Source: Paludibacteraceae bacterium (GTDB lineage Bacteria > Bacteroidota > Bacteroidia > Bacteroidales > Paludibacteraceae). Taken from it: DNA of 35,299 nucleotides. The stretch covers positions 1 to 35,299 of the forward strand of contig JAKSOA010000019.1 in the NCBI GenBank assembly GCA_024405875.1. Direction: 5' to 3'. The notes under the pieces are model-generated. The model saw only the letters and a program-made list of their open reading frames with translations. It ran no database searches and was not told the origin of the DNA. The stretch's first letter is position 1. Each line of letters begins with the position of its first letter. The translations under genes and the position numbers were made by a program. Shown in pieces: positions 1 to 31,889 of this stretch.

Positions 1-959
1 TCCCATGCCAATGCGCTTGCACCAAGAATGGCGGCGTCAGACTCTTTCAGTTGAGAGAACATAACCTTAATCTTATTACGCCAGCGTGGCATAACATTTT
101 TATTAAGGGAATCAACAACCGGCTTCATAAGAAGGTCTCCACTGCGTGTAAGACCACCAAACAGAACTATAGCCTCTGGTGAAGAGAATACCACAAAATC
201 CGCAAGAGCCTCACCAAGCATAGTGCCGGTAAAGTCAAATATGTCTTTTGCAAGTTCGTCGCCCTCTGCAGCAGCCTCAAACACATCTTTAGAGGTTATT
301 TTCTCTGCCGGAATATTTCTCAAAAGACTCTTACGGTCAGTGGTCTCAAGCATTTCACGTGCAGTGCGAGCCACACCTGTAGCGGAGCAATAAGCCTCCA
401 GACAACCTGTCTTACCACAGCCACAGAGACGTCCGTTCTGACGAACCATTGTAACGTGACCAAGTTCACCAGCGTTAGCATCGTAGCCGTAAAGAAGGTT
501 ACCGTTAACAATAATACCTGAGCCTACGCCTGTGCCAAGGGTAATCATAATAAAATCTTTCATACCACGCGCCACACCGTATGTCATCTCTCCAAGAGCG
601 GCGGCGTTAGCGTCATTTGTAAGTTTAACGGGCAGTCCTATCCTCTTGCTCATATACTCTGAGAAAGGAATCATCACACCTGAGCCACCCCAGGTAAGGT
701 TTACAGCACCCTCTATGGTACCTTTGTAGAAATTAGCATTAGGAGCCCCGATGCCAATACCACGAACCTGTTCCATAGAATAATCCTTATTCACAAGTTT
801 TTTAACCGCCTCACACAAGTTGTCAATGAATTTTTTGTAATCAGTAACATCATTGCTAACAATAGCTGTTTGAACAAGAACATTACCACGGGCATCTACA
901 AGCCCGATTTTTGCAGATTGACCACCTATGTCAATGCCAACTACGTAGGGTTTTTCCAT
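1..959 (-). CDS. ROK family sugar kinase (glucokinase-like), partial at left edge
   Basis: Transfers phosphate from ATP to a hexose, probably glucose, in the cytoplasm; the exact sugar is inferred. Starting at ATG 957-959, the reading frame is open to the window edge, giving about 319 residues, so nearly the whole protein is present. Residues 10-19 (DIGGQSAKIG) form the ATP phosphate-binding loop, NDANAA follows at about 115, and GELGH at 164-168 with CGCGKTGC at 179-186 is the ROK zinc site (one His, three Cys). There is no N-terminal HTH, so it is a kinase and not a ROK repressor. It lies 31 bases downstream of the S24-like peptidase gene on the same strand, with no clear promoter between them. 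Codon 71 region holds one CCCCGATG octamer (746-753, antisense). Confidence 0.93.
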   Translation of the reverse strand, partial: MEKPYVVGIDIGGQSAKIGLVDARGNVLVQTAIVSNDVTDYKKFIDNLCEAVKKLVNKDYSMEQVRGIGIGAPNANFYKGTIEGAVNLTWGGSGVMIPFSEYMSKRIGLPVKLTNDANAAALGEMTYGVARGMKDFIMITLGTGVGSGIIVNGNLLYGYDANAGELGHVTMVRQNGRLCGCGKTGCLEAYCSATGVARTAREMLETTDRKSLLRNIPAEKITSKDVFEAAAEGDELAKDIFDFTGTMLGEALADFVVFSSPEAIVLFGGLTRSGDLLMKPVVDSLNKNVMPRWRNKIKVMFSQLKESDAAILGASALAW

Positions 960-990
960 AATTTTGATATATTAAAAGTTATATTATAAG

Positions 991-1455
991 TTAGTTCTCA
1001 CTACTTGTAGATACAAATTTACTGAATTTTTGAGTTTTTCTATATAATTTGAGCGTGTATTTTCTAAGAAATTTATTTCTTGGCCATAGTTTGTTGCTTA
1101 ATTTCCATAAAAGAGAGTTATAGTTTATCTCTTTTTTACCCCTCTTTACCATTTTAACAACAGCAATTACACTTGAATACGGCACCAACTCCTTGTTACC
1201 CAGATTTCCGTCACCATATAGGAACATATCATTCTCCATAAGCTTTACAATCCTATGCAGAATGTAGATACCATCCTGCGGCTCAACAAGAACAATCATA
1301 CCTGTACGCAAACGGTGCGGTTTTGTGAGCACAACTGTATCTCCCGTTCTTATAAACGGCAACATACTACTGCCTTTGGCAACAATCTTTACATCCTTGC
1401 CCTCACGGATGGCGTCCTTCACATTGGAGAATAATATGTCATTGGGCACAATCAT
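991..1455 (-). CDS. S24/S26 (LexA/signal peptidase fold) serine peptidase-like protein
   Basis: A 154-residue protein. Residues 27-40 (KGSSMLPFIRTGDT) match the catalytic Ser-Met box of S24/S26 peptidases (Ser30). GIYILHRIV places His67 where SipW-type enzymes carry the second catalytic residue in place of Lys, and YGDGN (80-84) resembles the following box. There is no transmembrane segment and no LexA HTH, so it is neither a normal leader peptidase nor a repressor. The C-terminal third is basic and of unknown role. It starts 9 bases after the stop of the HprK-like gene, so the two are very probably co-transcribed. Such kinase-peptidase pairs occur in Bacteroidota genomes, sometimes with PqqD-like proteins; the substrate is unknown. 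Processing of a small peptide is an inference only. Confidence 0.75.
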   Translation of the reverse strand: MIVPNDILFSNVKDAIREGKDVKIVAKGSSMLPFIRTGDTVVLTKPHRLRTGMIVLVEPQDGIYILHRIVKLMENDMFLYGDGNLGNKELVPYSSVIAVVKMVKRGKKEINYNSLLWKLSNKLWPRNKFLRKYTLKLYRKTQKFSKFVSTSSEN

Positions 1456-1462
1456 AATCTAC

Positions 1463-1492: not shown

Positions 1493-2337
1493 CTACTCAT
1501 TGCACTATGTGATAGTTGCGCTGCGGCATCATCTGGTAAGCACTCTAAATAAAATATGGGTGTCTTGCTTACAATATCAGAAAGTGTAGAACACAAGGCG
1601 TTCATACAAGCCTCACTCCAAGGCAACTTTGAACAAGATGTATATAACAGGGCGAATGCCGCCGCACCACTCTTGCGTTCAATCTTATTATACGGAGCCT
1701 GTGCAAGACGTGCGATTCCCCCTACCTGATAGCGTTCATTCTTATATACGGCACCCTTACCACTCCACGGAGAGCCATAAACAACAGTCTCACCATTCTC
1801 AAATTTTAACACAGGATTGTCATCGTTCAGAATATCGGCATTCTTAAAGTTCTTTAGCCACAGACGGCAGTGTGTACTCTTACCAGTACCGCTCTTTCCT
1901 AAAAACAGATAAGCCTTCCCATCCAATACCGCCACCGATGCGTGTATCATAAGAGATTTCTTCTCTATAGTGGCGAATGTAAAAGAGAGCATCAGCATAT
2001 TGTTCAACACATCTTTACAAATGCAGTCCGCACTCATATCTGTTCTGTACTCCTTAAAATCCTTGTCAAATTCCAATAAATAGTTTTTCCCCGATGCTAT
2101 ATCTGTAAATTTAATGCAAAAGACTCTCTCACTTTCAAAAATTGCAAAATCATACTCATCAGACTTGTAGATTTCCTTGCCAGACAATTTTACATCACAC
2201 CCTAAGAGCAAACTGAAATCAGCATTCTCCGCATTTCCCACTATAAACGGACGCAAATTTTCCATAGGGCTCAATGTTTCAGACGTAACATTCAGCCTTA
2301 CAGAAAATTCCGCTATTTTGAAATATGAATATTGCAT
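1465..2337 (-). CDS. HprK/PEPCK-like P-loop kinase (serine kinase of HPr type)
   Basis: A 290-residue protein starting at ATG 2335-2337. An upstream in-frame GTG at 2358 lies inside a terminator hairpin and is not credible. Residues 147-155 (GKSGTGKST) form the P-loop, followed by LNDDNP and by YGSPWSGKG, the pattern of HprK/PEPCK-type phosphotransferases. The first 120 residues are beta-rich and typical of the Bacteroidota subgroup. It lacks the DRTGG domain of true HPr kinase/phosphorylase. Relatives phosphorylate a serine on lasso peptides, but no precursor peptide was seen here, so its target is unknown. The last codons and the stop come from a dispersed repeat (1463-1492). It precedes the S24-like peptidase gene by 9 bases. 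Confidence 0.8.
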   Translation of the reverse strand: MQYSYFKIAEFSVRLNVTSETLSPMENLRPFIVGNAENADFSLLLGCDVKLSGKEIYKSDEYDFAIFESERVFCIKFTDIASGKNYLLEFDKDFKEYRTDMSADCICKDVLNNMLMLSFTFATIEKKSLMIHASVAVLDGKAYLFLGKSGTGKSTHCRLWLKNFKNADILNDDNPVLKFENGETVVYGSPWSGKGAVYKNERYQVGGIARLAQAPYNKIERKSGAAAFALLYTSCSKLPWSEACMNALCSTLSDIVSKTPIFYLECLPDDAAAQLSHSAMSSEILRYRSE

Positions 2338-2344
2338 ATTTTTG

Positions 2345-2375: not shown

Positions 2376-2398
2376 CTTTTACTATTCTAATTAAAAAT

Positions 2399-4340: not shown

Positions 4341-7300
4341 TTAATTTTTAAAATATGAAGCCCAATCCTTAATCTGTATATCTTCTTGCTTAACAGAGCA
4401 GAAAGCGTGTATGAACGCACTTGCAAGGCGTGCGTTAGTCATTAGAGGAATGTTATGGTCTATTGCACCACGACGTATTCTGTAGCCGTTTGTAAGTTCA
4501 CGCTTTGTGTGGTTCTTTGGTATATTAACTACAAGTTCAAAGCGTTTCTCAGCCATCAAATCCATAATCTGAAGTTCTGACGGCTCATCAGGCCAGCCAA
4601 CTGCGGTAGCCTTAACGCCATTCTCCTCAAGGAACTTCTGTGTGCCATCTGTGGCATATATGTCATAGCCGTTAGCCGCAAGAAGTTTGCAAGGCTCAAG
4701 GAGTTCTACTTTTGACTTAGCCTCTCCTGATGAAACAAGAATGCTCTTCTTAGGAATATTGAAACCAACTGAGATAAGAGACTTGAGCAACGCCTCATTA
4801 AAGTCATCGCCTATACAACCCACCTCACCTGTTGAAGCCATATCAACGCCAAGTATGGGGTCTGCCTTATGCAGACGGGCGAATGAGAACTGAGAAGCCT
4901 TTACACCTATATGCTCTATATCAAATATTGAAGAGTCTGGTTTTGTATAGTCGGCACCAAGCATAATGCGTGTGGCTGTCTCTATGAAGTTACGTTTGAT
5001 AACCTTAGAGACAAACGGGAATGAGCGTGAGGCACGCAGGTTACACTCAATAACCTTAATGTCATTGTTCTTTGCCAGATACTGAATGTTGAACGGACCT
5101 GTAATGTTCAGTTCCTTCGCTATCTTCTTTGACACCTTTTTAATACGACGCATTGTCTCAAAGTATAGTTTCTGTGCCGGGAACACAAGGGTTGCGTCAC
5201 CAGAGTGGACTCCGGCAAACTCAACGTGTTCTGATATGGCGTACTCAACTATCTCACCATTTTTGGCAACAGCGTCAAACTCAACCTCTTTTGCGTTCTG
5301 CAGGAATGATGACACAACCACCGGATGGTCTTTTGAAACCTTTGCCGCAAGAGTCAGGAACTGCTGAACCTGCTCCTTGTTGTAGCAAACATTCATTGCC
5401 GCACCTGAAAGCACGTATGACGGACGAATAAGCACAGGGAAACCAACCTCTGCTATAAAGTCATCTATATCCTCAAAACTTGTAAGCTCACGCCAGCGTG
5501 GCTGGTCAATTCCAAGAGTATCAAGCATTGCGGAGAATTTATGACGGTCCTCCGCCCTATCTATATTAAGTGCCGATGTACCTAAAATAGGAGCACCCTG
5601 CCTATGAAGTTTCATCGCAAGGTTATTAGGAATCTGACCGCCCACTGATACTATGACACCCTTAGGATTCTCAATCTCAAGCACATCAAGCACGCGTTCA
5701 AATGAGAGTTCGTCAAAGTAGAGACGGTCACACATATCATAGTCCGTAGAGACGGTCTCTGGGTTATAGTTAATCATAACTGACTGATAACCAAGTTTGC
5801 GCGCCGCTTGAACAGCATTCACGCTACACCAGTCAAACTCAACTGAAGAACCTATGCGGTAGGCACCTGAGCCAAGCACCACAACACTCTCAGCCTCTGA
5901 TTTGGCAGGTGTGTAGTTCTCACTGCTACCGTATGTCATATATAGGTAGTTAGTTTTATCGGGGTGCTCGGAGGCAATAGTATTTATTCTGCGAACTGTA
6001 GGTTTAACACCTTGTGCCAAACGATGCTTACGGGCACGCAGCATCTCCTTCTCCATATTTCCGCCAGGATTCTCCACGAATCGCGCTATCTGGAAGTCAG
6101 AGAAGCCAAGACGCTTAGCCTCTTTCATTACATCGGGGGTTATATCCTCTATCTTTTTGAACCCGCCAAGCACCTTAGTGAACTTTACAATATTCTCAAG
6201 TTTGCCAAGGAACCAAGGGTCAATCTTTGTGAGAGACTCTATCTTCTCAACCGAATAACCCTTCTCCAGGGCGGCGGCGACAGCAAATATACGCAAGTCC
6301 GTAGGGTGAGACAAAGCCTCGTCAAGGTTCTCAAATTGAATATCCTTATTACCTACAAAGCCGTGCATTCCCTGACCTATCATACGCAAGCCCTTCTGCA
6401 TAATCTCCTCAAATGACTTACCTATTGCCATAATCTCACCGACAGATTTCATTGAAGAGCCAATCTCACGGCTTACGCCTGTGAACTTTGTCAAATCCCA
6501 GCGTGGGATCTTGGCTATAATATAATCTACAGACGGAGCCACGTATGCTGAGTTAGGTGTACCCATCTCACCTATTTGGTCAAGCGTGTAACCCAATGCA
6601 AGTTTGGCGGCGACAAAAGCAAGAGGATAGCCTGATGCCTTAGATGCAAGTGCTGAAGAACGGCTTAGACGAGCGTTAATCTCAATTATGCGGTAATCAT
6701 TTGTCTCTGCGTTGAATGCGTACTGAATGTTGCACTCACCCACAATACCAATGTGGCGAACAACTTTCTTTGCAATCTCCTCAAGCAGATGAATCTGCTC
6801 CTTTGTAAGTGATATGATAGGAGCCACCACTATACTCTCTCCTGTATGTATGCCCAGAGGGTCAACATTCTCCATAGGAACCACAGTAAAGCAGTGGTCA
6901 TTAGCGTCACGTATCACCTCAAACTCTATCTCTTTCCAACCCTTCAGGCTCTCCTCAACCAAAATCTGTTTTGAATATGCAAGCGCACTCTCACAAAGTT
7001 TCTTGAACTCCTCTTCATTTGCACAAACACCAGAACCAAGACCGCCAAGAGCGTATGCTGAACGCACCATTACAGGATAGCCTAATGTACGAGCCTCTTT
7101 CAAGGCATCTTCCATACTCTCCACAGCCTGTGATACAGGAGTTTTTGCGTCAATCTCCTTAAGGCTCTTAACAAAGAGGTCTCTATCCTCTGTTACCATA
7201 ATAGCCTCCACCGATGTTCCAAGAACCTTAACGCCATACTTTTTAAGAGTTCCGTTCTGATAGAGTTCTGTTCCGCAGTTAAGAGCGGTCTGACCGCCAA

Positions 7301-7562
7301 AGGCAAGCAATATGCCATCGGGGCGTTCCTTTTCAATTACTCTTTCTACAAAATAAGGCGTTACCGGAAGAAAATAGACTCTGTCCGCAACGCCTTGTGA
7401 TGTTTGAATAGTTGCAATGTTCGGGTTAATCAACACTGTCTCAATACCCTCTTCTCTCATCGCCTTCAACGCTTGGGAACCCGAATAGTCAAACTCACCC
7501 GCCTGCCCTATTTTTAAGGCTCCTGAGCCAAGAAGCAGGACTTTTTTACAGTTTTCTAACAT
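4341..7562 (-). CDS. carB: Carbamoyl-phosphate synthase, large subunit
   Basis: Makes carbamoyl phosphate from bicarbonate, ammonia (delivered from glutamine by CarA) and two ATP, feeding pyrimidine and arginine synthesis. The 1073 residues match the full family length. The two homologous halves are visible: LGSGALKIGQAGEFDYSG near residue 11 and VLGSGAYRIGSSVEFDW near 560 each start an ATP-grasp unit, with ECNIQYA and ECNLRASRS metal/ATP segments. The last ~130 residues are the MGS-like allosteric domain. carA is not adjacent in this window. The gene lies directly downstream of tRNA-Gln, separated by a terminator hairpin, and I see no TAnnTTTG box between them. Octamers CCCCGATG at 6131-6138 and 7316-7323. 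Confidence 0.98.
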   Translation of the reverse strand: MLENCKKVLLLGSGALKIGQAGEFDYSGSQALKAMREEGIETVLINPNIATIQTSQGVADRVYFLPVTPYFVERVIEKERPDGILLAFGGQTALNCGTELYQNGTLKKYGVKVLGTSVEAIMVTEDRDLFVKSLKEIDAKTPVSQAVESMEDALKEARTLGYPVMVRSAYALGGLGSGVCANEEEFKKLCESALAYSKQILVEESLKGWKEIEFEVIRDANDHCFTVVPMENVDPLGIHTGESIVVAPIISLTKEQIHLLEEIAKKVVRHIGIVGECNIQYAFNAETNDYRIIEINARLSRSSALASKASGYPLAFVAAKLALGYTLDQIGEMGTPNSAYVAPSVDYIIAKIPRWDLTKFTGVSREIGSSMKSVGEIMAIGKSFEEIMQKGLRMIGQGMHGFVGNKDIQFENLDEALSHPTDLRIFAVAAALEKGYSVEKIESLTKIDPWFLGKLENIVKFTKVLGGFKKIEDITPDVMKEAKRLGFSDFQIARFVENPGGNMEKEMLRARKHRLAQGVKPTVRRINTIASEHPDKTNYLYMTYGSSENYTPAKSEAESVVVLGSGAYRIGSSVEFDWCSVNAVQAARKLGYQSVMINYNPETVSTDYDMCDRLYFDELSFERVLDVLEIENPKGVIVSVGGQIPNNLAMKLHRQGAPILGTSALNIDRAEDRHKFSAMLDTLGIDQPRWRELTSFEDIDDFIAEVGFPVLIRPSYVLSGAAMNVCYNKEQVQQFLTLAAKVSKDHPVVVSSFLQNAKEVEFDAVAKNGEIVEYAISEHVEFAGVHSGDATLVFPAQKLYFETMRRIKKVSKKIAKELNITGPFNIQYLAKNNDIKVIECNLRASRSFPFVSKVIKRNFIETATRIMLGADYTKPDSSIFDIEHIGVKASQFSFARLHKADPILGVDMASTGEVGCIGDDFNEALLKSLISVGFNIPKKSILVSSGEAKSKVELLEPCKLLAANGYDIYATDGTQKFLEENGVKATAVGWPDEPSELQIMDLMAEKRFELVVNIPKNHTKRELTNGYRIRRGAIDHNIPLMTNARLASAFIHAFCSVKQEDIQIKDWASYFKN

Positions 7563-7762: not shown

Positions 7763-8788
<1,026 letters not shown>

Positions 8789-9120: not shown

Positions 9121-9192
9121 ATTCGGTGATGCGGTGATGCGGTGATGCGGTTAATTATTAATTACTAATTACTAATTGCTAATTGCTAATTG
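9121..9192 (+). repeat. Composite repeat in front of rarA: GGTGATGC units plus TAATTRC heptads
   Basis: Three tandem copies of about 9 bases (CGGTGATGC) at 9124-9150 are followed by about five 7-base units TAATTAC, TAATTAC, TAATTGC, TAATTGC, TAATTG ending 4 bases before the rarA ATG. A similar composite lies in front of the glycosyltransferase gene at 28844-28916 on the minus strand. Confidence 0.85.
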
Positions 9193-9196
9193 TACT

Positions 9197-10408
9197 ATGC
9201 GGCCGCTTGCAGAGAGACTCAGACCCACGACATTAGATAACTACATCGGGCAGAAACACCTTGTAGGAGAGGGGGCTGTCATCAAAAAGATGATTGACAG
9301 CGGCTCCATTCACTCCTTTATATTATGGGGGCCTCCGGGTGTGGGCAAGACAACGCTTGCAAAGATAGTGGCTGACGCAGCCCATCGTGGATTCTACAGT
9401 TTAAGTGCCGTAACCTCATCTGTCAAAGATGTGCGTGAGGTTATTGAGCGTGCGGAAAAGAGTCGCTTTTTTGACTCCCCCGCCCCTATCCTTTTCATTG
9501 ATGAGATTCACCGTTTCAGCAAGTCACAACAAGATTCCCTGCTTGCCGCCGTGGAGAAAGGCACAGTGGTGCTTATAGGAGCCACCACAGAGAACCCATC
9601 ATTTGAGGTTATCACCCCACTACTCTCACGCTGTGCGGTCTATACACTTAAACCACTTGAAAAGGCTGATTTAATGGAACTTGCAGGGCGAGCCTTGGCT
9701 GCCGACAAGGCGTTTGAAGGCAAAAGCATAGAGTTTAAGGAGACAGAGGCTCTGCTACAATATTCAGGCGGTGACGCCCGCAAACTGCTTAACGCGCTTG
9801 AACTTATAGTGAGTGTTGACTCTTCTGACCACATTATCATAACTAATGATATGGTGGCGGAGCGTTTGCAGGAGAACCCGGCAGTCTATGACAAGAACGG
9901 TGAGATGCACTATGACATAATCTCCGCCTTTATAAAATCTGTCCGTGGCTCTGACCCCGATGCCGCAGTCTACTGGCTGGCACGTATGATTGAGGGCGGT
10001 GAAGACCCTAAATTCATAGCCCGACGCCTGCTTATTTTGGCATCGGAAGACATAGGTCTGGCTAATCCAAACGCACTGCTTCTTGCCAACACCTGCTTTG
10101 ACGCAGTAAACAAGATTGGTTGGCCCGAAAGCCGAATAATACTCTCAGAGACAACCATATACCTTGCCACTTGCAAAAAGAGCAACAGCGCTTATATGGC
10201 AATTGACGCCGCACAGGCAGAGGTCAGACGCAGTGGCAACCTACCCGTTCCGTTACATCTGCGAAACGCCCCCACAGCCCTTATGCGTGATATGGAGTAT
10301 GCCAAAGGCTACAAATACCCCCACGACTTCCCCGGACACTGGGTAGAACAACAATACTTGCCAGATGAAATAAAAAACAAAGTTTTTTATTTCAGGGACA
10401 AGGACTGA
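9197..10408 (+). CDS. rarA: RarA/MgsA AAA+ ATPase (replication-associated recombination protein A)
   Basis: A clamp-loader-like ATPase acting at stalled replication forks. Starting at ATG 9197 it is 403 residues, normal for the family. The in-frame TTG at 9176 lies in the heptad repeat and is rejected. MRPLAERLRPTTLDNYIGQ is the typical N-terminus, GPPGVGKTT (45-53) is Walker A, and FIDEIHRFSKSQQD is Walker B; the tetramerisation and MgsA C-terminal regions (DFPGHWVEQQYLPD) are intact. It is a single gene, divergent from the lipoprotein gene, with no clear terminator after it. Octamer CCCCGATG at 9955-9962 (codons for Pro-Asp). Confidence 0.96.
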   Translation: MRPLAERLRPTTLDNYIGQKHLVGEGAVIKKMIDSGSIHSFILWGPPGVGKTTLAKIVADAAHRGFYSLSAVTSSVKDVREVIERAEKSRFFDSPAPILFIDEIHRFSKSQQDSLLAAVEKGTVVLIGATTENPSFEVITPLLSRCAVYTLKPLEKADLMELAGRALAADKAFEGKSIEFKETEALLQYSGGDARKLLNALELIVSVDSSDHIIITNDMVAERLQENPAVYDKNGEMHYDIISAFIKSVRGSDPDAAVYWLARMIEGGEDPKFIARRLLILASEDIGLANPNALLLANTCFDAVNKIGWPESRIILSETTIYLATCKKSNSAYMAIDAAQAEVRRSGNLPVPLHLRNAPTALMRDMEYAKGYKYPHDFPGHWVEQQYLPDEIKNKVFYFRDKD

Positions 10409-10980: not shown

Positions 10981-11862
10981 TCCAAATATCTCCACGCCCT
11001 CCACAGCATCTGCTTTTACTATTTTCTTAAGCATACCTTGGAGTGCGGTGCCAGGACCAACCTCTGTGAAACTTACAGCACCGTCCTTAATCATATTACG
11101 GACGCACTGTGTCCACTTTACAGGAGATGTCAGTTGCTTTACAAGATTAGCCTTTATGACATCGGGGTCAGTCTCTGCAATAGTGCTTACATTCTGATAT
11201 ACAGGACATATAGGTTTAGAGAATGGTGTGGCCTCAATGGCGGCCGCCAGTTCAACCTTTGCAGGCTCCATAAGCGGAGAGTGGAACGCACCACCTACCG
11301 CAAGTTTGATGGCACGCTTGGCACCAGCCTCTGTCATAAGTTCCACTGCCTTGTCTATGGCGGAAACCTCACCAGAGATTACCAATTGTCCGGGGCAGTT
11401 GTAGTTTGCGGGAACTATTACACCCTCTATCTCAGCACATATCTTCTCAATAGTGGCATCGTCCAAACCGAGAACAGCGGCCATAGTTGAAGGTTGTTTC
11501 TCACAAGCCTTCTGCATAGCCATAGCACGCTTGCTCACAAGTTTCAGACCATCCTCAAAACTAAGCGCACCTGCGGCTACAAGGGCTGAGAACTCACCAA
11601 GTGAGTGACCTGCAGTCATATCCGGCTTGAAATCAGCCATAGTCCTTGCAAGAATTACAGAGTGCAGGAAAACCGCAGGCTGTGTGACCTTTGTCTGGCG
11701 TAAGTCATCATCACTTCCGGCAAACATTATATCCGTTATTTTAAAACCAAGAATCTCATCGGCACTGTCAAACATCTGTCTGGCAACCGCTGATGATTCA
11801 TACAACTCCTTGCCCATTCCTGAGAATTGGGCTCCTTGTCCTGGGAATACGTAGGCTTTCAT
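10972..11862 (-). CDS. fabD: Malonyl-CoA:ACP transacylase
   Basis: Transfers malonyl from CoA to acyl carrier protein for fatty acid synthesis in the cytoplasm. The 296 residues are normal length. FPGQGAQFSGMG (6-17), the nucleophile elbow GHSLGE with Ser87, and AFHSPLM with His193 are all present. The last codons (GIN) and stop run into the heptad repeat at the 3' side. It is transcribed away from dapL; a TACCTTTG box lies at 11999-12006. Octamer at 11160-11167 (Pro-Asp codons). Confidence 0.97.
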   Translation of the reverse strand: MKAYVFPGQGAQFSGMGKELYESSAVARQMFDSADEILGFKITDIMFAGSDDDLRQTKVTQPAVFLHSVILARTMADFKPDMTAGHSLGEFSALVAAGALSFEDGLKLVSKRAMAMQKACEKQPSTMAAVLGLDDATIEKICAEIEGVIVPANYNCPGQLVISGEVSAIDKAVELMTEAGAKRAIKLAVGGAFHSPLMEPAKVELAAAIEATPFSKPICPVYQNVSTIAETDPDVIKANLVKQLTSPVKWTQCVRNMIKDGAVSFTEVGPGTALQGMLKKIVKADAVEGVEIFGIN

Positions 11863-19130: not shown

Positions 19131-20104
19131 GACCTTAAAATTGTATTTTTTAAAATCACTGAACATATAACACACAGCACGGCAAGAAGGGCGAACCAAT
19201 GGAACATCTCCTCTTTCTGGCTGAACTCACTAACATTAATTATTGTCTTCTCAAGGGTATCAATATCCTGGTAAATCTGTTCCAGAGACTTATTGTCAGT
19301 GGCACGGAAATACTTACCGCCTGTAATATTGGCAATCTGCTCAAGCGTAGGTTCATCTATATCAACCTCAATATCTTGATACTGAATGCCATACGGGGTT
19401 TGAACCGGATATGGCGCCATACCTTGTTTACCTACACCTATAGTATATATCCTTATGCCAAAGGTCTTGGCAATCTCTCCAGCGGTAACAGGTGCTATCT
19501 CTCCACGATTGTTTGAGCCGTCAGTAAGCAGAATAATAACCTTTGATTTTGCCTGACTGTCCTTCAGACGATTAATTGCCGTGGCAAGTCCGTTTCCAAT
19601 GGCTGTTCCGTCCTCAATCATTCCGCTCTTGACACCGCTTATAAGATTTATAAGTTGGGCGTGGTTTATTGTAAGAGGACACTGCGTGAAACTCTCTCCG
19701 GCAAAAAGCACTACCCCGATGTTATCATTAGGACGCTCATTTATAAAGTGTGTGGCAACCTTCTTGGCAGCCTCCAACCTGTTTGGTTTCAAATCCTCTG
19801 CAAGCATACTTGAAGAGATGTCAAGTGACATTACAATATCAATACCCTCCGTTGTCTTATTGCTCCAACTGTCACTCATTTGCGGACGTGCGAGAGCGCA
19901 AACAACAGCACAGTATGCTATTACAGAGAGTATGAACGGCAGATGACGCAGATAAACCACCGCCTGTTTTGGAGCCTTTTCAAAAGCCTCTGTAGTTGAT
20001 ATTGTAAGATTAGCCTTGAATGTATCCTCTTTTAAGATGTACCATACTATAAGCGGAACAAGCAGGATTAGCATCAAGAACCATAGCGGACTTGCGAACG
20101 TCAT
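19121..20104 (-). CDS. batA: BatA: VWA-domain membrane protein
   Basis: A 327-residue protein with N-terminal transmembrane helices (PLWFLMLILLVPLIVWYIL, then FILSVIAYCAVVCALA), a VWA domain with MIDAS motif DISSSM near residue 97 and TDGSNNRG, and a C-terminal transmembrane helix (WFALLAVLCVICSVIL). It fits BatA, the paralogue of BatB. The ATG overlaps the stop of the upstream gene by 4 bases. Its stop codon and final residues (RSIP) are coded by the arm of a long hairpin. Octamer at 19714-19721. Confidence 0.94.
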   Translation of the reverse strand: MTFASPLWFLMLILLVPLIVWYILKEDTFKANLTISTTEAFEKAPKQAVVYLRHLPFILSVIAYCAVVCALARPQMSDSWSNKTTEGIDIVMSLDISSSMLAEDLKPNRLEAAKKVATHFINERPNDNIGVVLFAGESFTQCPLTINHAQLINLISGVKSGMIEDGTAIGNGLATAINRLKDSQAKSKVIILLTDGSNNRGEIAPVTAGEIAKTFGIRIYTIGVGKQGMAPYPVQTPYGIQYQDIEVDIDEPTLEQIANITGGKYFRATDNKSLEQIYQDIDTLEKTIINVSEFSQKEEMFHWFALLAVLCVICSVILKNTILRSIP

Positions 20105-21090: not shown

Positions 21091-21957
21091 TCATCCTCTC
21101 ATTCTGAACAATGAAATCAATGATTTAACATAATCATCTGATGTTGAAACACTTACCATATCAACACCACTTTTTGAGAAAGAGGTGGTTATACGCTCCT
21201 GACGGCTACGCCACTTCTCTTCATACAAGCGACGAACGCTGCTGTTTGAGGTATCAACATAGATGACTTTCCCTGTTTCAGAGTCAACAACCTTCAACAG
21301 CCCGACATCGGGGAGATAGGTATCCTTTACATCATATACCTGCAAGGCAACCAAATCGTGTTTTCTTGAGGCAATCATAAGTGACTTTTCAAACTCAGGG
21401 GCAATGAAATCTGATATTAGAAATGCCGTGCAACGCCTCTTAATTACATTTGAGAAGTATTGCAACACGCAAGATATATCACTCTTCTTACTTTCAGGCT
21501 GAAACTCAAGCAATTCCCTGATAATATAAAGGATATGTTTTTTACCCTTCTGCGGTGCTATGAACTTCTCCACTTTGTCTGAAAAGAATATGACACCAAT
21601 CTTATCATTATTCTGAATGGCGGAAAAGGCAAGGGTGGCGGCTATCTCTGTTATCATCTGACGTTTTGTACAACCTTCAGTACCAAAAGCACCGCTACCA
21701 GAGACATCAATAAGCAACATTACGGTAAGTTCCCTCTCCTCTTCAAACACCTTTACGTATGGGTGGTTAAAGCGGGCGGTAACATTCCAGTCAATGCTTC
21801 TGACATCATCTCCCGGCTGATACTCACGCACCTCAGAGAACGCCATTCCCCTACCCTTGAAGGCGGTATGATACTGCCCAGCAAAGATATTTTGTGACAG
21901 TCCTCTGGTCTTTATCTCAACCTGACGAACTTTTTTTAGTATCTCGCTAGTTTGCAT
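21091..21957 (-). CDS. DUF58 (VWA-like) protein
   Basis: A 288-residue soluble protein. The DUF58 signature is complete: GRGMAFSEVREYQPGDDVRSIDWNVTA is spread over residues 35-61, and LLIDVSGSGAF starts a VWA-like fold with an atypical MIDAS (DVSGS). DUF58 proteins always accompany MoxR ATPases. Its ATG overlaps the moxR stop by one base (TAATG), so translation is coupled. Octamer at 21306-21313. Confidence 0.95.
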   Translation of the reverse strand: MQTSEILKKVRQVEIKTRGLSQNIFAGQYHTAFKGRGMAFSEVREYQPGDDVRSIDWNVTARFNHPYVKVFEEERELTVMLLIDVSGSGAFGTEGCTKRQMITEIAATLAFSAIQNNDKIGVIFFSDKVEKFIAPQKGKKHILYIIRELLEFQPESKKSDISCVLQYFSNVIKRRCTAFLISDFIAPEFEKSLMIASRKHDLVALQVYDVKDTYLPDVGLLKVVDSETGKVIYVDTSNSSVRRLYEEKWRSRQERITTSFSKSGVDMVSVSTSDDYVKSLISLFRMRG

Positions 21958-22949
21958 TATGGTACTTCTACTGCATTAAGTATCTCTGACACAATCTCCT
22001 CAGATGTAAGGTTGTTTGCCTCTGCCTCATAACTAATGCCAATACGGTGGCGGAGGACATCGTGGCAAACGGCACGTACATCTTCAGGAATTACATAGCC
22101 TCTATGCTTGATGAAAGCGTATGAACGGGCAGCCTGTGCAAGTGAAATTGAGGCACGAGGTGAAGCCCCGAATGAAATCATTCCCTCAAGGTTCTCCAAT
22201 CCGTATGCCTTAGGGTCACGGGTGGCAAACACAATATCAAGAATATATTTCTCAATTTTCTCATCAATGTATATCATACGAACAACCTCACGGGCGTCAA
22301 GAATCTCCTGAGGCTTAAGCACTGGAGCGATAGGCGCCGGTTTAGCCCCGATGTTCTGACGGATTATGAGTCTCTCCTCCTCAAGTTTAGGGTAACTTAC
22401 AATAACCTTCATCATAAAACGGTCAACCTGTGCCTCTGGCAGCGGATAGGTACCCTCCTGCTCTATAGGGTTCTGTGTAGCAAGAACAAGGAACGGCGCA
22501 TCAAGTTTGTATGTGGTGTCTGCAAGTGTAACCTGACGCTCCTGCATAGCCTCAAGAAGCGCACTCTGAACCTTTGCCGGAGCACGGTTAATCTCATCGG
22601 CAAGAATGAAGTTTGCGAATATAGGTCCTTTCTTCACCACGAACTCTTCTGTCTTCTGACTGTAGATAAGTGTACCCAACACATCGGCTGGCAATAGGTC
22701 AGGGGTGAACTGAATACGGCTGTATTTGCTGTCAATAAGTTGTGCAAGTGTCTTAATGGCAAGTGTCTTTGCCAAACCTGGCACACCCTCAAGCAATATA
22801 TGACCATCAGAAAGCAGACCTATCAGCAGTGACTCCACAAGGTGTTTCTGACCAACAATAACTTTGTCCATACCCATAGTAAGGACATCAACAAACTCAC
22901 TCTTCTTCTCAATAAGTGAGTTCAATTCTCTGATATCAACTGGTTGCAT
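21957..22949 (-). CDS. MoxR-family AAA+ ATPase of the bat operon
   Basis: A 330-residue AAA+ ATPase, chaperone-like, predicted to act with the VWA proteins encoded downstream. EGVPGLAKTL is the Walker A of this family, ILADEINRAPAKVQSALLEAMQE is split as Walker B and sensor region, and LATQNPIEQEGTYPLPEAQ is the MoxR hallmark. It is the first gene of the moxR-DUF58-bat cluster. The start at 22947-22949 is preceded within 10 bases by TAATTRC repeats. I found no TAnnTTTG box in the 144-base spacer upstream, so either the promoter is divergent or transcription reads in from the HU genes. Octamer at 22346-22353. Confidence 0.96.
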   Translation of the reverse strand: MQPVDIRELNSLIEKKSEFVDVLTMGMDKVIVGQKHLVESLLIGLLSDGHILLEGVPGLAKTLAIKTLAQLIDSKYSRIQFTPDLLPADVLGTLIYSQKTEEFVVKKGPIFANFILADEINRAPAKVQSALLEAMQERQVTLADTTYKLDAPFLVLATQNPIEQEGTYPLPEAQVDRFMMKVIVSYPKLEEERLIIRQNIGAKPAPIAPVLKPQEILDAREVVRMIYIDEKIEKYILDIVFATRDPKAYGLENLEGMISFGASPRASISLAQAARSYAFIKHRGYVIPEDVRAVCHDVLRHRIGISYEAEANNLTSEEIVSEILNAVEVP

Positions 22950-24618: not shown

Positions 24619-25903
24619 TTGCTTCTCCATATAGGTCAAAATCCTCATAATCTGTAATCTTCACATTATAGAAACAGCCACGCCTAAGTTTTCTCTCCGA
24701 TGTAGGAACCAGAATCTCCAAATCAACATCGGGGGAGTCATACTCACTGCGTGTCACATAATAGTCACCCTCTATGCGGTCAACCACCACCTGCATCTCA
24801 CGCCCCACATACGCCTCATTTACAGATAACTGCACCTGCTGCTGTATAGCCATCAACTTGTCCAGACGCTCTTGTTTGACCTCATCGGGGATTGAATCCT
24901 CATAATTAAGTGCGGCATAAGTGCCCTCCTCCTCACTATACTTGAAGGCTCCCATACGTTCAAACCTGACCTCACGCACAAAATCACACAACTCATTAAA
25001 GTCCTCATCTGTCTCACCCGGATGACCTACCATAAGCGTTGTACGCAAACATATTCCAGGTACACGGCGGCGAATCTCATCAATTAGTTTAAGCGTCCCA
25101 GCCTTATCAATACCCCGCCTCATCTTCCTCAGCATATTGTCTGATATGTGTTGAAGCGCTATGTCAAGATATTTGCACACATTGGCGTTGTCTCTTATTG
25201 CGTCAAGCAAATCATACGGAAACTGCGTAGGATATGCGTAGTGCAATCTAAGCCACTTTACACCCTTTACCTTTGCCAAACGGTTTACAAGTTCCGCAAT
25301 CTTTGGCTCTCCATAAAGGTCTCTGCCATAGTATGTCAAATCCTGAGCCATCACCTGAATCTCCTTAACACCCTGACTTACAAGACACTCCACCTCTTTC
25401 TCAATATCTTCTATCGGACGGCTCTTATACGCTCCCGTTATAAGCGGAATGGCGCAGTATGAGCAGGTGCGGTTGCAGCCCTCAGCAATCTTCAGGTAGG
25501 CATAGTGCTTTGGTGTTGTCAGACAACGCTCCAGCCTTATGGAATTCTTATAGCGCCCGCCCAAATCACGGACAATGCTCTTTATGTCAAACTTTCCGTA
25601 GAATTTATCTACTTCTGGAATCTCTTTTTTTAGTTCCTTTTTATATCTTTCTGAGAGACAGCCCATTACATACAACTCCTTGAGTTTACCATTTGTCTTG
25701 CGCTCCGCCTGCTCAAGTATTGTGTTTATGCTCTGCTCCTTAGCGTCCCCGATGAATCCGCAAGTGTTTATTATGGCAATATCTCCATTTGGTTTCTCAC
25801 GGTCATGATATACATCATAACCCGCCTCCACTAATTGACGTATGAGCATCTCACTGTCAACCAGGTTCTTTGAGCATCCCAATGTTATTAAATCTATGAC
25901 CAT
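24578..25903 (-). CDS. rimO: Ribosomal protein S12 methylthiotransferase
   Basis: Radical SAM enzyme adding a methylthio group to Asp88 of ribosomal protein S12. All parts are present in the 441 residues: N-terminal cluster Cys10, Cys48 and Cys82 (TLGCSKNLVDSE), radical SAM cysteines 143, 147 and 150 (CNRTCSYC), and a C-terminal TRAM domain. LGCSKN and the family length support RimO over MiaB. The last 13 residues are coded by a dispersed repeat. It overlaps ftsY by 10 bases and is translated from the same mRNA. Octamers at 24727-24734, 24883-24890 and 25747-25754. Confidence 0.96.
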   Translation of the reverse strand: MVIDLITLGCSKNLVDSEMLIRQLVEAGYDVYHDREKPNGDIAIINTCGFIGDAKEQSINTILEQAERKTNGKLKELYVMGCLSERYKKELKKEIPEVDKFYGKFDIKSIVRDLGGRYKNSIRLERCLTTPKHYAYLKIAEGCNRTCSYCAIPLITGAYKSRPIEDIEKEVECLVSQGVKEIQVMAQDLTYYGRDLYGEPKIAELVNRLAKVKGVKWLRLHYAYPTQFPYDLLDAIRDNANVCKYLDIALQHISDNMLRKMRRGIDKAGTLKLIDEIRRRVPGICLRTTLMVGHPGETDEDFNELCDFVREVRFERMGAFKYSEEEGTYAALNYEDSIPDEVKQERLDKLMAIQQQVQLSVNEAYVGREMQVVVDRIEGDYYVTRSEYDSPDVDLEILVPTSERKLRRGCFYNVKITDYEDFDLYGEAISRHFERDHFPSF

Positions 25904-27726: not shown

Positions 27727-28842
27727 TCACAACCCTTTCAGACAATCAATCATAGCACGCCAACTATACTTTTTTTTCTCTTCGGCAATACCTTTTTCAA
27801 AGCAGTCTGGCGTACGGTTAAAGAAGAAATCAGAGATGGCGGCACACAACGCCTCCGCTTCAGGCTCCACCACATAGCCAGCCTTGCCATCGGGGACAAT
27901 CTCAGCCAAACCGCCCACACGGGTCACTATCATAGGTTTCTCAAAATTGTAGCCTATCTGAGTAATACCGCTCTGCGTGGCGGTCTTGTATGGCTGCACC
28001 ACTATGTCAGCGGCGGCAAACCAGTAGCGCACCTCATCATCAGGTATGAAATCATTATGCCACACTATCTTGTCAGTTATCCCTAACCCCGATGCCTGTT
28101 TCATATACTTATCAGCGTTGCCATAGAACTCCCCCGCAACTATGAGCCTTACTCCCCTCTCCCAAAACCTGCCTGCCGCATACGCCTCAAGCAGAAGGTC
28201 AAGCCCCTTGTAATCTCTTATGAACCCGAAGAACATCAGGTAGCGTACATCGGGGTCAAGATTAAGTTTTTCCACAGCCTCAAGGCGTGTTGCCTTCTCA
28301 CCATAAATATCATAGAGAGGATGCGGATTAAGAGAACACGGCTTGGAAGTAAAGTGGCTTAACTCCTCTCTCACAGACTCGCTCAAGACAACAAAACAGT
28401 CTATCGCCCCTATGAAATATTTTGAGAGCATAGAGTCATAGAAATGTCGCTCGTGAGGGATTATGTTATCAACAAGCCCTACAATCTGAGTTTTGCCGTT
28501 ACCCTTTGATATGCGGGCTATTGTGCCAAGGCACGGAGCCATAAACGGCAACCAATAGCGTACAATAAGTATATCAGGCGCAGCCTTGCGTATCTTACGC
28601 CCCACCTTAATCCAATTAAACGGGTTCACAGAGTTTACACTGCGCTCCATTTTAACCCCCGATGGCGCAGGAGAGGGATTATACTGCGTCTTACCCGGAA
28701 ACAGGAACTCAGGGTACTGAAGTGAGAAGTTCTCTATATTTATATCATCGCCAGCCTCAATAAACTCAATGGCAAGGCGGTCATTGAATGCCGCTATGCC
28801 ACCACGATATGGATAGGCTGGACCGAGAAGAGTAATGGTCAT
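27727..28842 (-). CDS. Glycosyltransferase (GT4-type)
   Basis: A 371-residue cytoplasmic sugar transferase. The start is ATG 28840-28842 (MTITLLGPAYPYRGGIAAFN); the TTG four codons earlier lies in repeat DNA. PYRGGIA near the N-terminus is the acceptor/nucleotide loop, and GYNFEKPMIVTRVGGLAEIV near residue 310 is the GT-B donor-binding motif with its Glu. The protein has no transmembrane segment. The acceptor, perhaps a lipid or surface glycan, is unknown, as no other glycan genes are near. Five CCCCGATG-type octamers fall in this gene (27888, 28087, 28248, 28657, with none elsewhere nearby), making four in total here. Confidence 0.88.
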   Translation of the reverse strand: MTITLLGPAYPYRGGIAAFNDRLAIEFIEAGDDINIENFSLQYPEFLFPGKTQYNPSPAPSGVKMERSVNSVNPFNWIKVGRKIRKAAPDILIVRYWLPFMAPCLGTIARISKGNGKTQIVGLVDNIIPHERHFYDSMLSKYFIGAIDCFVVLSESVREELSHFTSKPCSLNPHPLYDIYGEKATRLEAVEKLNLDPDVRYLMFFGFIRDYKGLDLLLEAYAAGRFWERGVRLIVAGEFYGNADKYMKQASGLGITDKIVWHNDFIPDDEVRYWFAAADIVVQPYKTATQSGITQIGYNFEKPMIVTRVGGLAEIVPDGKAGYVVEPEAEALCAAISDFFFNRTPDCFEKGIAEEKKKYSWRAMIDCLKGL

Positions 28843-28843: not shown

Positions 28844-28916
28844 ACAATTAGCAATTAGTAATTAGCAATTAGTAATTAACAATTAATTTTCAATTCACCG
28901 ATTCACCGCATCACCA
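28844..28916 (-). repeat. Composite repeat in front of the glycosyltransferase gene
   Basis: On the minus strand GGTGATGCGGTGAATCGGTGAA-like units (28889-28916) are followed by TAATTAC TAATTGC TAATTAC TAATTGC TAATTG, ending 2 bases before the ATG. Same order and orientation as the repeat before rarA. Confidence 0.85.
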
Positions 28917-28954: not shown

Positions 28955-28964
28955 GCACGAAATA

Positions 28965-30089
28965 ATGAAAGTTAAAAATAAAATATCAATCATACTGATG
29001 CTTGCGTTAGCCATAACGGCTTGCACAAAGGGTACTGAGACCACGAGTGACACAACCAATGACGCAACCTGTAGCGTAGAGGCGGCGGAGCCTGACAGTG
29101 TGCTCACACCGCTCTTTGCCAAATATTTCCACATTGAGTACTACCCCACATATAAAGTTGCCGTAGTGCTGAACCCGTGGGACAGTGCCAAAGTTATGGC
29201 ACGTCATAAAATAACAGCGGAGGCTGAGAGAGTGGCGGCTGGCAGTTGCAGTCATATAGCATTTATTGACAACATAGGCTGCACAGACCGCATAAAAGGC
29301 GTATGCTCAGCAAACCTAATATATAACCCCGCAGTAAGGAAGGCCCTGAAAAACGGTGGCTGCATTGATTTGGGAGACAGTTTCTCAGTTAATTTTGAGC
29401 CTGTAATGATGCTTAAACCTTCACTATTCTTTACTACGGCTTATAATCAGCCAGACCAGCACATAGAGCGGCTAAAAGAATCAGGCATAAACATTGTCAG
29501 CACAGTTGAGTGGATAGAGCCCGACATACTTGGACGCGCGGAGTGGATTAAATTCATAGCGGCGTTCTTTAATAAGGAGAGAGAGGTGGACTCACTCTTC
29601 AACTCTGTTATGTCAAATTATGACCGTCAGATAGAGCGAGCCGCAAATGCAGAGAGCTCCCCTTCAATATTACCAGGACTCACATTCAAAGGGGTATGGT
29701 ATATGCCGGCAGGCAACAGTTATATGAGCCGTCTGTTCTCAGATGCCGGTGGCTTATACCACTTCTCAGACAATAGTGAGTCTGGCAGTCTGCCGCTAAG
29801 TTTTGAGTACGTGCTGCAGAACTTCAATGATTGTGACATCTGGATTGGGCTTGACATTGACACCTACGCGGAACTTATAAGCACAGATTCCCGTCTTGAA
29901 CTATTGAAACCATACCAGACACGCAGTGCCTACAATAAGAACAAACGCAAGTTAAAAAGCGGTGCCAATGATTTTTGGGAGAGCGGCATTGTACGTCCTG
30001 ACCTTATTTTGAGTGACCTTGTCACAATCCTTCACCCCGATGTCACAGATGAGGGCGACTCCACTATATTTATGAACCCGTTGCGGTAA
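28965..30089 (+). CDS. ABC-transporter periplasmic binding lipoprotein (FecB/BtuF type)
   Basis: A 374-residue lipoprotein: signal peptide with lipobox AITAC (Cys20), then a low-complexity Thr/Glu/Ser linker. The body has the class III binding-protein pattern with two lobes joined by a long helix: YKVAVVLNPW, MMLKPSLFFTTAYNQ, LKESGINIVSTVEW, FKGVWYMPAGNSYMSRLFSD and RPDLILSDL. The likely ligand is an iron chelate or cobalamin; the sequence does not decide. It faces the ATPase gene tail to tail with only 4 bases between stop codons. Octamer at 30035-30042. Confidence 0.87.
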   Translation: MKVKNKISIILMLALAITACTKGTETTSDTTNDATCSVEAAEPDSVLTPLFAKYFHIEYYPTYKVAVVLNPWDSAKVMARHKITAEAERVAAGSCSHIAFIDNIGCTDRIKGVCSANLIYNPAVRKALKNGGCIDLGDSFSVNFEPVMMLKPSLFFTTAYNQPDQHIERLKESGINIVSTVEWIEPDILGRAEWIKFIAAFFNKEREVDSLFNSVMSNYDRQIERAANAESSPSILPGLTFKGVWYMPAGNSYMSRLFSDAGGLYHFSDNSESGSLPLSFEYVLQNFNDCDIWIGLDIDTYAELISTDSRLELLKPYQTRSAYNKNKRKLKSGANDFWESGIVRPDLILSDLVTILHPDVTDEGDSTIFMNPLR

Positions 30090-30093
30090 ACGG

Positions 30094-30873
30094 CTACCTG
30101 CACACCTTGAAACTGCGAGTGTCAGGGTTAAAGAAGAAGGCGTCAGAGTGGAAACTCTCAGCAATCTTACCACTTGTGACAAGTTCCTCAGGTGAGCCTG
30201 TAATTATGCGTTTCCCACTCTCCATAAGCCAGATGCTGTCAGCCACCTGAAGCGCAATATCAATATCGTGGGTTGAGAGAAGTATGGTTTTATCACGCTC
30301 AGACGCAAGTTTATGCAGCAGACATAAAATGTCTATCTTATTACGCATATCAAGAAAAGAGGTTGGCTCATCAAGGAATATGATAGGAGTATCCTGTGCA
30401 AGAGCCTTTGCTATCATAGTACGCTGACGCTCACCATCTGAGAGCATATAGAGAGGCTGGTCTGCCTTATGCGCCACATTAACCTGAAGCATTGACTGCT
30501 CCACCACCTCACGGTCTTTAGGAGTAAGCGTACCCATAAAATTAGTGTACGGGAAACGCCCCATTCCCACCAAATCTCTCACCTTAATACTACGCAGATA
30601 TTGACTGTCAGTAAGTACGTGGCTTATGAGCCTTGCCCTACGATTCCCAGAGAGAGACGCCAGATTGTCATTCTTGACAACAACTTTGCCCTTTAGTGGC
30701 TTCTGCAGACCGCTGAGAGTGCGAATAAGGGTTGATTTGCCACAGCCGTTAGTTCCAATTAGCGCAGTAAGCGTGCCACGCTGAAGTGACAGGTTTAACG
30801 GATATGTTATGCTCTTGCCGTTATACCCAATCTCTAAAATCTTGGCAGATAATATGTACGGAGCATCAGCCAT
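30094..30873 (-). CDS. ABC-transporter ATPase (FecE/BtuD type)
   Basis: A 259-residue ATPase energising import across the inner membrane. Walker A GTNGCGKST (40-48), signature LSDGERQR (Asp for the usual Gly), Walker B IIFLDEPTSFLD and the H-loop LSTHDID are present. Its ATG overlaps the permease stop by one base. Together with the permease and the convergent binding protein it makes a complete importer. Confidence 0.95.
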   Translation of the reverse strand: MADAPYILSAKILEIGYNGKSITYPLNLSLQRGTLTALIGTNGCGKSTLIRTLSGLQKPLKGKVVVKNDNLASLSGNRRARLISHVLTDSQYLRSIKVRDLVGMGRFPYTNFMGTLTPKDREVVEQSMLQVNVAHKADQPLYMLSDGERQRTMIAKALAQDTPIIFLDEPTSFLDMRNKIDILCLLHKLASERDKTILLSTHDIDIALQVADSIWLMESGKRIITGSPEELVTSGKIAESFHSDAFFFNPDTRSFKVCR

Positions 30874-31889
30874 CAGTAGTTCAAGTGTTTGTTCTTAATT
30901 ATAACCCAAAGAATAACCGGAGCCCCAATCAGAGCGCTTATTGAGTTTATAGGAATTGTATAGATAGTTCCAGGCAATTGAGATACAAGGTCACAGACAA
31001 GCAGCAAGGCGGCGCCTGCTAAAACAGAGGCAGGCAGCACCACCCTATGGTCTGCGGTTTTAAAAACACCCCTTACTATATGCGGCACAGCCACCCCGAT
31101 AAAGGCGATAGGACCCGTAAACGCTGTGCTTGCCCCTGCCAGCAGACAGGTAAGCACTATTATAATGGTTCTTGTAAAGCCTACACTCAAACCCAGACCA
31201 CGGGCATAATTCTCACCAAGCAGCAGTGCGTTAAGCCTCTTAGGCAGGAACAGTGCAATTAATATGGCACCTACCACTACGGGAGCCATCACATAAAGAT
31301 AGTTCCAAGTTACAGCACTCAGGCTACCCATTGTCCATACAACATATATTTTCAAGGCATCGGGGTTACTGACACTCTGCAGCACATTAACCACAGCCCC
31401 AGCCATTCCCCCAAACATCATACCTACAATAAGCAGAGTTACCGTATCGTGGACCTTCAGAGAGGTCAGAAGCACAAGCACCATAACCAATGCGGCACCA
31501 GCCACAGCGGCAATCACCTGAGCCCAACCACTAAGCAAAAACGCAGACGGTACCGCTATAAAGCCTGCTGAAAGCACAAGAATAGCCACACCAAGCCCGG
31601 CTCCTGAACTTATTCCAAGAACATAAGGACCAGCCAACGGGTTACGGAAAAGAGTCTGCATAAGAAGCCCGGACAGGGAGAGTGCGGCACCGCAAAGCAC
31701 AGCAGTAAGCGCCTTTGGCAGACGGTAATTAAAGATAATGTTCCACACCGCGCCATCAGTGTTACCACCCATTAAAGCCTCAGCAACATATTTAAACGGA
31801 ATCAGCACATCACCCAGCACCACATCGGCGGTAAACGCCACCACCAGCAGCACAAACAATACTATGTATGACACCAGGTTTCGCTTCAT
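30873..31889 (-). CDS. ABC-transporter permease (FecCD/BtuC family)
   Basis: A 338-residue inner-membrane permease with about ten hydrophobic segments. FRNPLAGPYVLGISSGAGLG and GPIAFIGVAVPHIVR are the family hallmarks. It starts 7 bases after serB, so it seems to be transcribed with serB, and is overlapped by the ATPase gene. Octamer at 31358-31365. Confidence 0.95.
   Translation of the reverse strand: MKRNLVSYIVLFVLLVVAFTADVVLGDVLIPFKYVAEALMGGNTDGAVWNIIFNYRLPKALTAVLCGAALSLSGLLMQTLFRNPLAGPYVLGISSGAGLGVAILVLSAGFIAVPSAFLLSGWAQVIAAVAGAALVMVLVLLTSLKVHDTVTLLIVGMMFGGMAGAVVNVLQSVSNPDALKIYVVWTMGSLSAVTWNYLYVMAPVVVGAILIALFLPKRLNALLLGENYARGLGLSVGFTRTIIIVLTCLLAGASTAFTGPIAFIGVAVPHIVRGVFKTADHRVVLPASVLAGAALLLVCDLVSQLPGTIYTIPINSISALIGAPVILWVIIKNKHLNY

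Follow-up and report, generated by a model that had tools for sequence, protein, structure and literature searches.

What function is served by the octamer CCCCGATG, of which twenty-four exact copies are scattered over a stretch of 35,299 bases (contig JAKSOA010000019.1, positions 1 to 35,299; hereafter the window) from the assembly of a Paludibacteraceae bacterium? The original prediction, made from the window alone, had proposed a DNA-uptake, a Chi-like or a chromosome-architecture motif. The excess of CCCCGATG was found to be real and genome-wide, and the word to represent an asymmetric motif of ~8–11 bp around CGATR that is strongly over-represented, i.e., from ~7-fold (relative to the reversed pattern) to ~100-fold (relative to a Markov model), depending on genome and word. 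The balance of the evidence leans towards this word being a self-recognition tag for DNA uptake, recognized by a putative pilus-independent receptor, and biased DNA uptake is, among the known causes, the one that best accounts jointly for the excess at largely synonymous positions, the species dialects, the lack of replication polarity and the scarcity of the word in prophages.

A recount of the window returned the figures of the original prediction, with 14 copies on the forward and 10 on the reverse strand between positions 746 and 31365, whereas 0.48 copies are expected and at most three were seen in 100 dinucleotide shuffles. The source genome (designated G000), a metagenome assembly of 1,853,289 bases in 38 contigs that is 78.7% complete, contains 665 copies, 331 and 334 by strand, versus 9 + 7 = 16 copies of the reversed control word, and the excess is therefore not limited to the window. 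The density in G000 is ~0.36 exact copies per kb, i.e., one per 2.8 kb, and higher when variants are included; the window is ~1.9 times denser than this mean (24 versus ~12.7 copies). The absence of the word after position 31365 stands as described, yet it is not evidence by itself, since only ~1–3 copies are expected in the last ~4 kb.

In a G000 sample of 435,299 bases, composed of 20 stretches of 20 kb and the window, CCCCGATG was seen 164 times versus 4.0 expected under an order-3 Markov model. Under the same model, the variants CCACGATG (77 versus 6.6) and CCCCGATA (29 versus 4.2) are also strongly enriched and several further one-letter variants are up ~2-fold, while the remainder are not enriched, with the small exception of CCTCGATG (7 versus 0.6). 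The earlier statement that close variants are far rarer is thus only partly borne out, and the enriched variants point to a CCMCGATR-like motif rather than a single rigid 8-mer. Flank preferences around CCCCGATG in G000 are weak, i.e., A at -1, C at +2 and A at +3.

An excess of this kind could be a codon-usage or protein artefact, generated by Pro-Asp, Ile-Gly and Ser-Gly with certain codons, or a product of chance. The majority of copies do lie in genes and in few phases, with 152 of the 164 sampled copies being located in open reading frames (ORFs), which cover 89.7% of the sample. Thirty within-gene synonymous shuffles, however, yielded means of just 4.0 + 1.5 copies (maxima 9 and 4), i.e., ~5.5 of the 152, versus the 68 copies observed on the strand of the gene and 84 on the opposite strand; furthermore, copies occur in both orientations, in several phases and between genes. 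The artefact is ruled out by these shuffles, its probability being negligible, and the earlier assertion that protein sequence does not explain the motif is upheld; neither result that had been named as refuting the prediction, a count close to that of codon shuffles or an excess limited to the window, was obtained. Within the window, 13 copies are read as Pro-Asp, one as Pro-Met and five as Ser-Gly, as previously tallied, while Ile-Gly accounts for four rather than five, the fifth presumably being the copy at 746, which is outside complete ORFs and may belong to a gene running off the window.

The distribution of the word was determined across sixteen genomes of one rumen Bacteroidales genus. 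The named genome nearest to the source is the rumen Bacteroidales RUG163 (locus L026; CarB 92%), and the label Paludibacteraceae is attached to several of the near neighbours. CCCCGATG clearly outnumbers its reversed control in six of the sixteen, i.e., G000 (665/16), G002 (367/33), G010 (303/28), G001 (287/15), G012 (282/25) and G003 (199/22). The other ten contain 10–77 copies versus reversed controls of 11–37, the top ratios being those of G015 (73/17) and G007 (54/17), which belong to the genus but not to the motif clade. Raised counts were also obtained in other families (G043, 231/55; G060, 237/56; G058, 171/38; G053, 90/17); these, like the ratios of G015 and G007, are relative to the reversed word only. 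In a maximum-likelihood tree of CarB, which covers 24 named loci and 12 genomes of the sixteen (missing are G004, G005 and G007, with partial or distant CarB, and G010, in which no CarB was found), a single group, supported at 100/99, unites the motif-bearing G000, G001, G002, G003, G012 and RUG163; the motif-free G011 and its twin L027 join it next with lower support (90/90). No obvious similar motif was seen in 79 other Bacteroidales CarB loci besides RUG163, each of at most ~23 kb.

Within the motif-bearing group the word is spelled in dialects around a shared core. The core CGATG occurs at 3.2–4.5 times its order-2 expectation in samples of G000, G001, G002, G003, G010 and RUG163, versus 1.1–1.5 times in those of G005, G009, G011 and G015. 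The preferred spelling around the shared CGATR is CCMCGATG in G000, ACCCGATR in G002 and G010, CCGATGCC/T (pattern CCGATGCY) and CCGATAC in G003, and CNSCGATG followed by a pyrimidine (CNSCGATGYNR) in G001, G012 and RUG163, the last from 23 kb of sequence. These flank preferences are weak and short overall, and are clearest in the G001 dialect, where they reach ~+11. Whole-genome counts of matches over reversed controls agree with this assignment: CNSCGATGYNR is most abundant in G001 (903/128) and G012 (832/135), followed by G003 (401/86), and ACCCGATG in G010 (580/53) and G002 (544/76), followed by G008 (114/62). CCGATGCY is found in G003 (436/59) and also in G007 (401/235), G008 (357/110) and G014 (337/203), where controls are high, rendering the G003 pattern less specific. 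The dialect split matches the CarB tree, in which G001, G012 and RUG163 lie on one side of the motif clade and G000, G002 and G003 on the other. Site turnover is high at 73–78% nucleotide identity: G002 retains one of the 23 CCCCGATG sites of G000 in the alignment and has ACCCGATG at four, while of the 15 ACCCGATG sites of G002 that are aligned, four read CCCCGATG in G000; G003 keeps five of 37. The four CCCCGATG/ACCCGATG exchanges are probably the same positions, retained as sites in the local spelling. A common core with species-specific dialects, as seen here, is a property expected of DNA uptake sequences.

Recently acquired DNA, in which an uptake sequence should be scarce, is indeed poor in the full tag in two prophages. 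The largest strict gap of the G000 sample (36 kb; C1 110.2–146.5 kb) lies mostly inside a transposable prophage encoding terminase, portal, tail sheath, tape measure and transposase families as well as a reverse transcriptase. The span used for counting (C1 103,161–138,286; 35.1 kb) contains one copy each of CCCCGATG, CCACGATG and CCCCGATA, corresponding to 0.28 CCCCGATG per 10 kb versus 4.16 in the remainder of the sample, a ~15-fold rarity. The largest gap of the G003 sample is a related prophage, whose terminase is 79% identical to that of G000, while that of the G002 sample is a region of Rhs/SpvB-type and leucine-rich-repeat genes; no gap in the G001 sample exceeds 5.7 kb. As a separate observation, the G000 prophage is situated (C1 ~101,463–142,873; L011–L013) between Cas1-Cas2, identified by Pfam, and a 1036-residue protein that we take to be Cas9-like from its N-terminus, so that the CRISPR-Cas locus seems to be split by it; its reverse transcriptase is perhaps part of a diversity-generating element.

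If the word is an uptake tag, free DNA carrying it would be bound by a surface or periplasmic receptor and preferentially taken up; the incoming strand would pass ComEC, be loaded by DprA/RecA and recombine into the chromosome. Since motif-bearing DNA would be taken up more often, motif alleles would displace the alternatives and build up in number, for the most part at synonymous positions (molecular drive), and a shift of receptor preference in a species would cause its sites to be rewritten as a new dialect. Passage through the outer membrane would have to rely on a non-pilus machine, as proposed for Riemerella, because a type IV pilus ATPase was not found in the genus. Competence genes, of which the original prediction had named ComEA and ComEC as a check, are present: ComEC in 12 of the sixteen genus genomes, including all six that bear the motif, DprA in 13, including five of those six (it was not found in the G010 assembly), and an HHH_3 (ComEA-like) domain in all, as an open frame of 188–283 residues in 14, of 113 residues in G010 and in a long protein only in G014.

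Several observations weigh against this reading. ComEC, DprA and HHH_3 are not specific to the motif clade but equally common in motif-free relatives, and hence do not explain the distribution of the motif; these genes are also carried by bacteria for which no competence is known. The type IV pilus ATPase T2SSE/PilB scored over the cut-off in none of the sixteen genomes (two weak matches fell below it, while 13 of 14 control genomes exceeded it; secretin and pilin families were not searched for), so that a pilus system of the Neisseria/Haemophilus type was not recovered and a minor pilin, which is the known type of receptor, cannot be at work here. DUF5689, the surface family of Riemerella, was likewise found in 0 of 16 and is ruled out as receptor. 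None of these families, nor PDDEXK_1, separates motif-bearing from motif-free genomes, and neither does the length of ComEC, whose open frames measure 414–448 residues in the six motif-bearing genomes and 419–538 in six others. No depletion in the prophages is seen for the bare core CGATG, with densities per 10 kb of 11.7 versus 14.7 in the rest of G000 and 16.0 versus 15.2 in G003, and the core even exceeds its own expectation there (41 versus 21.1 and 20 versus 6.8, respectively), indicating an additional cause for some of the core excess and leaving the full tag alone as diagnostic. Neisseria uptake sequences are enriched between genes and often form hairpins, whereas the motif shows no such enrichment and rarely forms hairpins: 12 of the 164 sampled copies are intergenic, and a single inverted pair 18 bp apart is the sole spacing below 100 bp among 155, a result which also rules out use as a terminator or hairpin. 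In addition, the source organism is an uncultured one, represented by an incomplete metagenome assembly, and the opposite orientation of neighbouring copies, described below, would not be expected from uptake drive in its simple form.

The latter observation makes a chromosome-architecture site the strongest rival explanation, whereby an intracellular DNA-bridging or nucleoid protein would hold loops between opposite pairs within ~0.25–1 kb and selection rather than uptake would keep the copies. Adjacent copies of the strict word share their orientation in 244 cases and oppose it in 314 (p = 0.0035), and those of the relaxed motif in 394 and 547 cases, respectively (p = 7e-7). The effect is confined to neighbours less than 2 kb apart, of which 60% (G000), 63% (G002), 64% (G003) and 55% (G001) are opposite, versus means of 43–44% for control 6- and 7-mers, including words overlapping the motif; the value of the motif is matched by six of 588 such words. 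Strict inverted pairs peak at 250–500 bp (60 seen versus 34 expected), and copies less than 100 bp apart are fewer than expected in G000 (8 versus 17.6), though with no clear deficit in G001–G003. The orientation effect is nevertheless modest, was noticed post hoc and is absent for the strict word in G003 (53 versus 55). Moreover, spacing in G000 is irregular (coefficient of variation 1.46, prophage gap included), and differing spellings within one genus together with a single origin inside that genus would be atypical of a structural protein, and such a role is considered unlikely. A replication-polarised version, as in FtsK-orienting polar sequences (KOPS) or architecture-imparting sequences (AIMS), fits poorly: when replication direction is approximated by the GC skew of 10 kb blocks (on contigs rather than a closed genome), the 827 copies in G000–G003 divide into 392 along the G-rich strand and 435 against it, which, with the 331/334 strand balance of G000, extends to the genome what had been argued from the near-balanced orientation in the window. 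Absence of orientation bias around the chromosome is a property of known uptake words, according to the available part of one report (PMC1939737). In 150 kb of E. coli sequence used as a control, 36 Chi sites were divided 23 versus 13 by GC skew and neighbours 17 same versus 16 opposite; this control is small, and the power of the GC-skew method is not independently shown by it.

The same lack of polarity bears on the Chi-like reading, by which a nuclease of AddAB/RecBCD type would be switched by the word to recombinase activity while a double-strand break is repaired. The motif is asymmetric, its density is of Chi order and PDDEXK_1, of the AddAB type that was named earlier as a check, is encoded by all sixteen genus genomes, with two per genome in 12; yet orientation towards the terminus is not seen, and relatives that lack such a word possess this nuclease family just as often. 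The excess of E. coli Chi, reported as 1008 versus 151 expected from base composition in the part of the source at hand (PMC1939737), is weaker than the one described here, albeit under a different null, and a Chi-like function appears improbable. A shade more improbable still is a HIP1-like or methylation-linked word (HIP1, highly iterated palindrome 1), built up by a solitary methyltransferase, biased repair or the avoidance of restriction and not by transfer. CGATC is strongly depleted in G000 (10 versus 139 expected), and as this word contains GATC, restriction or methylation seems to shape neighbouring words; a gene with a weak Eco57I methylase match lies near the end of the window, and the raised CGATG counts of the prophages would also fit. 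The motif is, however, not a palindrome, restriction removes sites and does not add them, the over-represented word varies among sister species, and the depletion is common to motif-free relatives. The depletion of CGATC, hence probably of GATC, is seen with and without the motif (G003, 8 versus 98 expected; G011, 26 versus 70) and suggests a trace of past GATC restriction. Of the readings originally offered, biased uptake fits best, given the strand balance, the lack of replication polarity, the dispersal in genes, dialects, prophage scarcity and competence genes; the Chi reading is disfavoured, and of the architectural one the preference of close neighbours for opposite orientation survives while its replication-polarised form does not.

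The positions of all copies in the window are listed in Table 1, together with further features. Short arrays built of tandem 7-bp units are common, the favoured unit differing among genome samples, i.e., AATTACT in G000 (12 arrays), ACATCAT in G002 (34), AACTGTC in G001 (12) and AACTCCT in G008 (4) and G009 (5), with fewer or none in the remaining samples. The neighbour of the Eco57I-methylase-like gene has no Pfam match and is possibly its restriction partner. A distant CarB-like match, 64–66% identical to the CarB of the window, is present in G001, G005, G007, G011 and G012, of which G001, G011 and G012 also possess a close CarB; four of these five matches were reported with one internal stop.

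Table 1. Exact matches to CCCCGATG and other features of the window (ORF assignment based on complete ORFs only)
Feature	Position	Strand	Remark
CCCCGATG copy	746..753	+	outside complete ORFs used
CCCCGATG copy	2089..2096	+	inside ORF 1465-2358 (-)
CCCCGATG copy	6131..6138	-	inside CarB-like ORF 4341-7562 (-)
CCCCGATG copy	7316..7323	-	inside CarB-like ORF 4341-7562 (-)
CCCCGATG copy	8384..8391	-	
CCCCGATG copy	9955..9962	+	
CCCCGATG copy	11160..11167	-	
CCCCGATG copy	12156..12163	+	
CCCCGATG copy	12357..12364	+	
CCCCGATG copy	14192..14199	+	
CCCCGATG copy	14741..14748	+	
CCCCGATG copy	15054..15061	+	
CCCCGATG copy	19714..19721	+	
CCCCGATG copy	21306..21313	-	
CCCCGATG copy	22346..22353	+	
CCCCGATG copy	24727..24734	-	
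CCCCGATG copy	24883..24890	-	
CCCCGATG copy	25747..25754	+	
CCCCGATG copy	27888..27895	-	
CCCCGATG copy	28087..28094	+	
CCCCGATG copy	28248..28255	-	
CCCCGATG copy	28657..28664	+	
CCCCGATG copy	30035..30042	+	
CCCCGATG copy	31358..31365	-	last of window
7-bp tandem array	9152..9191		
7-bp tandem array	18947..18986		
7-bp tandem array	28846..28885		
Eco57I-methylase-like gene and neighbour	33562..35293		no CCCCGATG in span
Eco57I-methylase-like gene	34262..35293		weak, borderline family match

In the literature covered, as far as its available parts extend, dispersed uptake tags are described in Neisseriaceae and Pasteurellaceae only, both of which use type IV pili. A search for an uptake tag in Bacteroidota named none among the matches listed (subscription papers and preprints being mostly outside the coverage), and among the matches listed for the letters CCCCGATG none is by title on such a tag. 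It is tentatively proposed, with somewhat less confidence than the uptake function itself, that the motif may constitute the first family of DNA uptake sequences from Bacteroidota, with about four dialects in one rumen genus, a non-pilin receptor and opposite-oriented copies over ~1 kb. If true, a third, unrelated case without a pilus ATPase would suggest that uptake tags have evolved repeatedly, and would provide a handle on the outer-membrane DNA receptor of Bacteroidota. The system would then be young and still diversifying, its gain within one genus and its switching traceable, and gene flow among uncultured rumen bacteria could be read from DNA words, while the opposite-orientation arrangement would be a sign that uptake proceeds directionally from each tag.

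Compared with known systems, the motif resembles HIP1 of cyanobacteria in being a short word with extreme over-representation, as described for HIP1 in the available part of the source (PMC1939737), and differs from that palindrome in being non-palindromic and in having dialects. With the Chi sites of RecBCD/AddAB it shares an asymmetric, octamer-scale word and the presence of the nuclease family, though it lacks replication polarity, shows a stronger excess and is restricted to one clade of a genus. Competence of Riemerella, also a member of the Bacteroidota, requires ComEC, DprA and an HHH protein, and the accessible text reports no homologue of a classical pilus machine and describes the machine as unique (PMC8459023); R. 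columbina prefers its own DNA, no tag being established in the portion at hand (PMC7965970). The genus studied here is similar in possessing ComEC, DprA and the HHH protein with no pilus ATPase found, and dissimilar in carrying a dispersed tag, whereas the available part of the k-mer table for Riemerella contains A-rich words, and in lacking DUF5689. For the uptake signal sequence (USS) of Pasteurellaceae, the same partial source gives 438 copies versus 3 expected in A. pleuropneumoniae, enriched near-matches and 65% of the H. influenzae copies in ORFs (PMC1939737); strong over-representation, enriched near-matches and many copies in ORFs are features of the present motif also, although its flanks are weak and short, its share in ORFs is larger and a pilus ATPase was not found. 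The DNA uptake sequence (DUS) of Neisseriaceae is an unrelated word of higher density, with more intergenic copies and hairpins, and is read by a ComP-type pilin receptor, which is not to be expected here, given that no type IV pilus ATPase was found. Its species dialects have a conserved core and are consistent with the tree, according to the part of the report available (PMC3630211), and the motif described here is likewise a short asymmetric word present in hundreds to thousands of copies, with dialects built around a conserved core.

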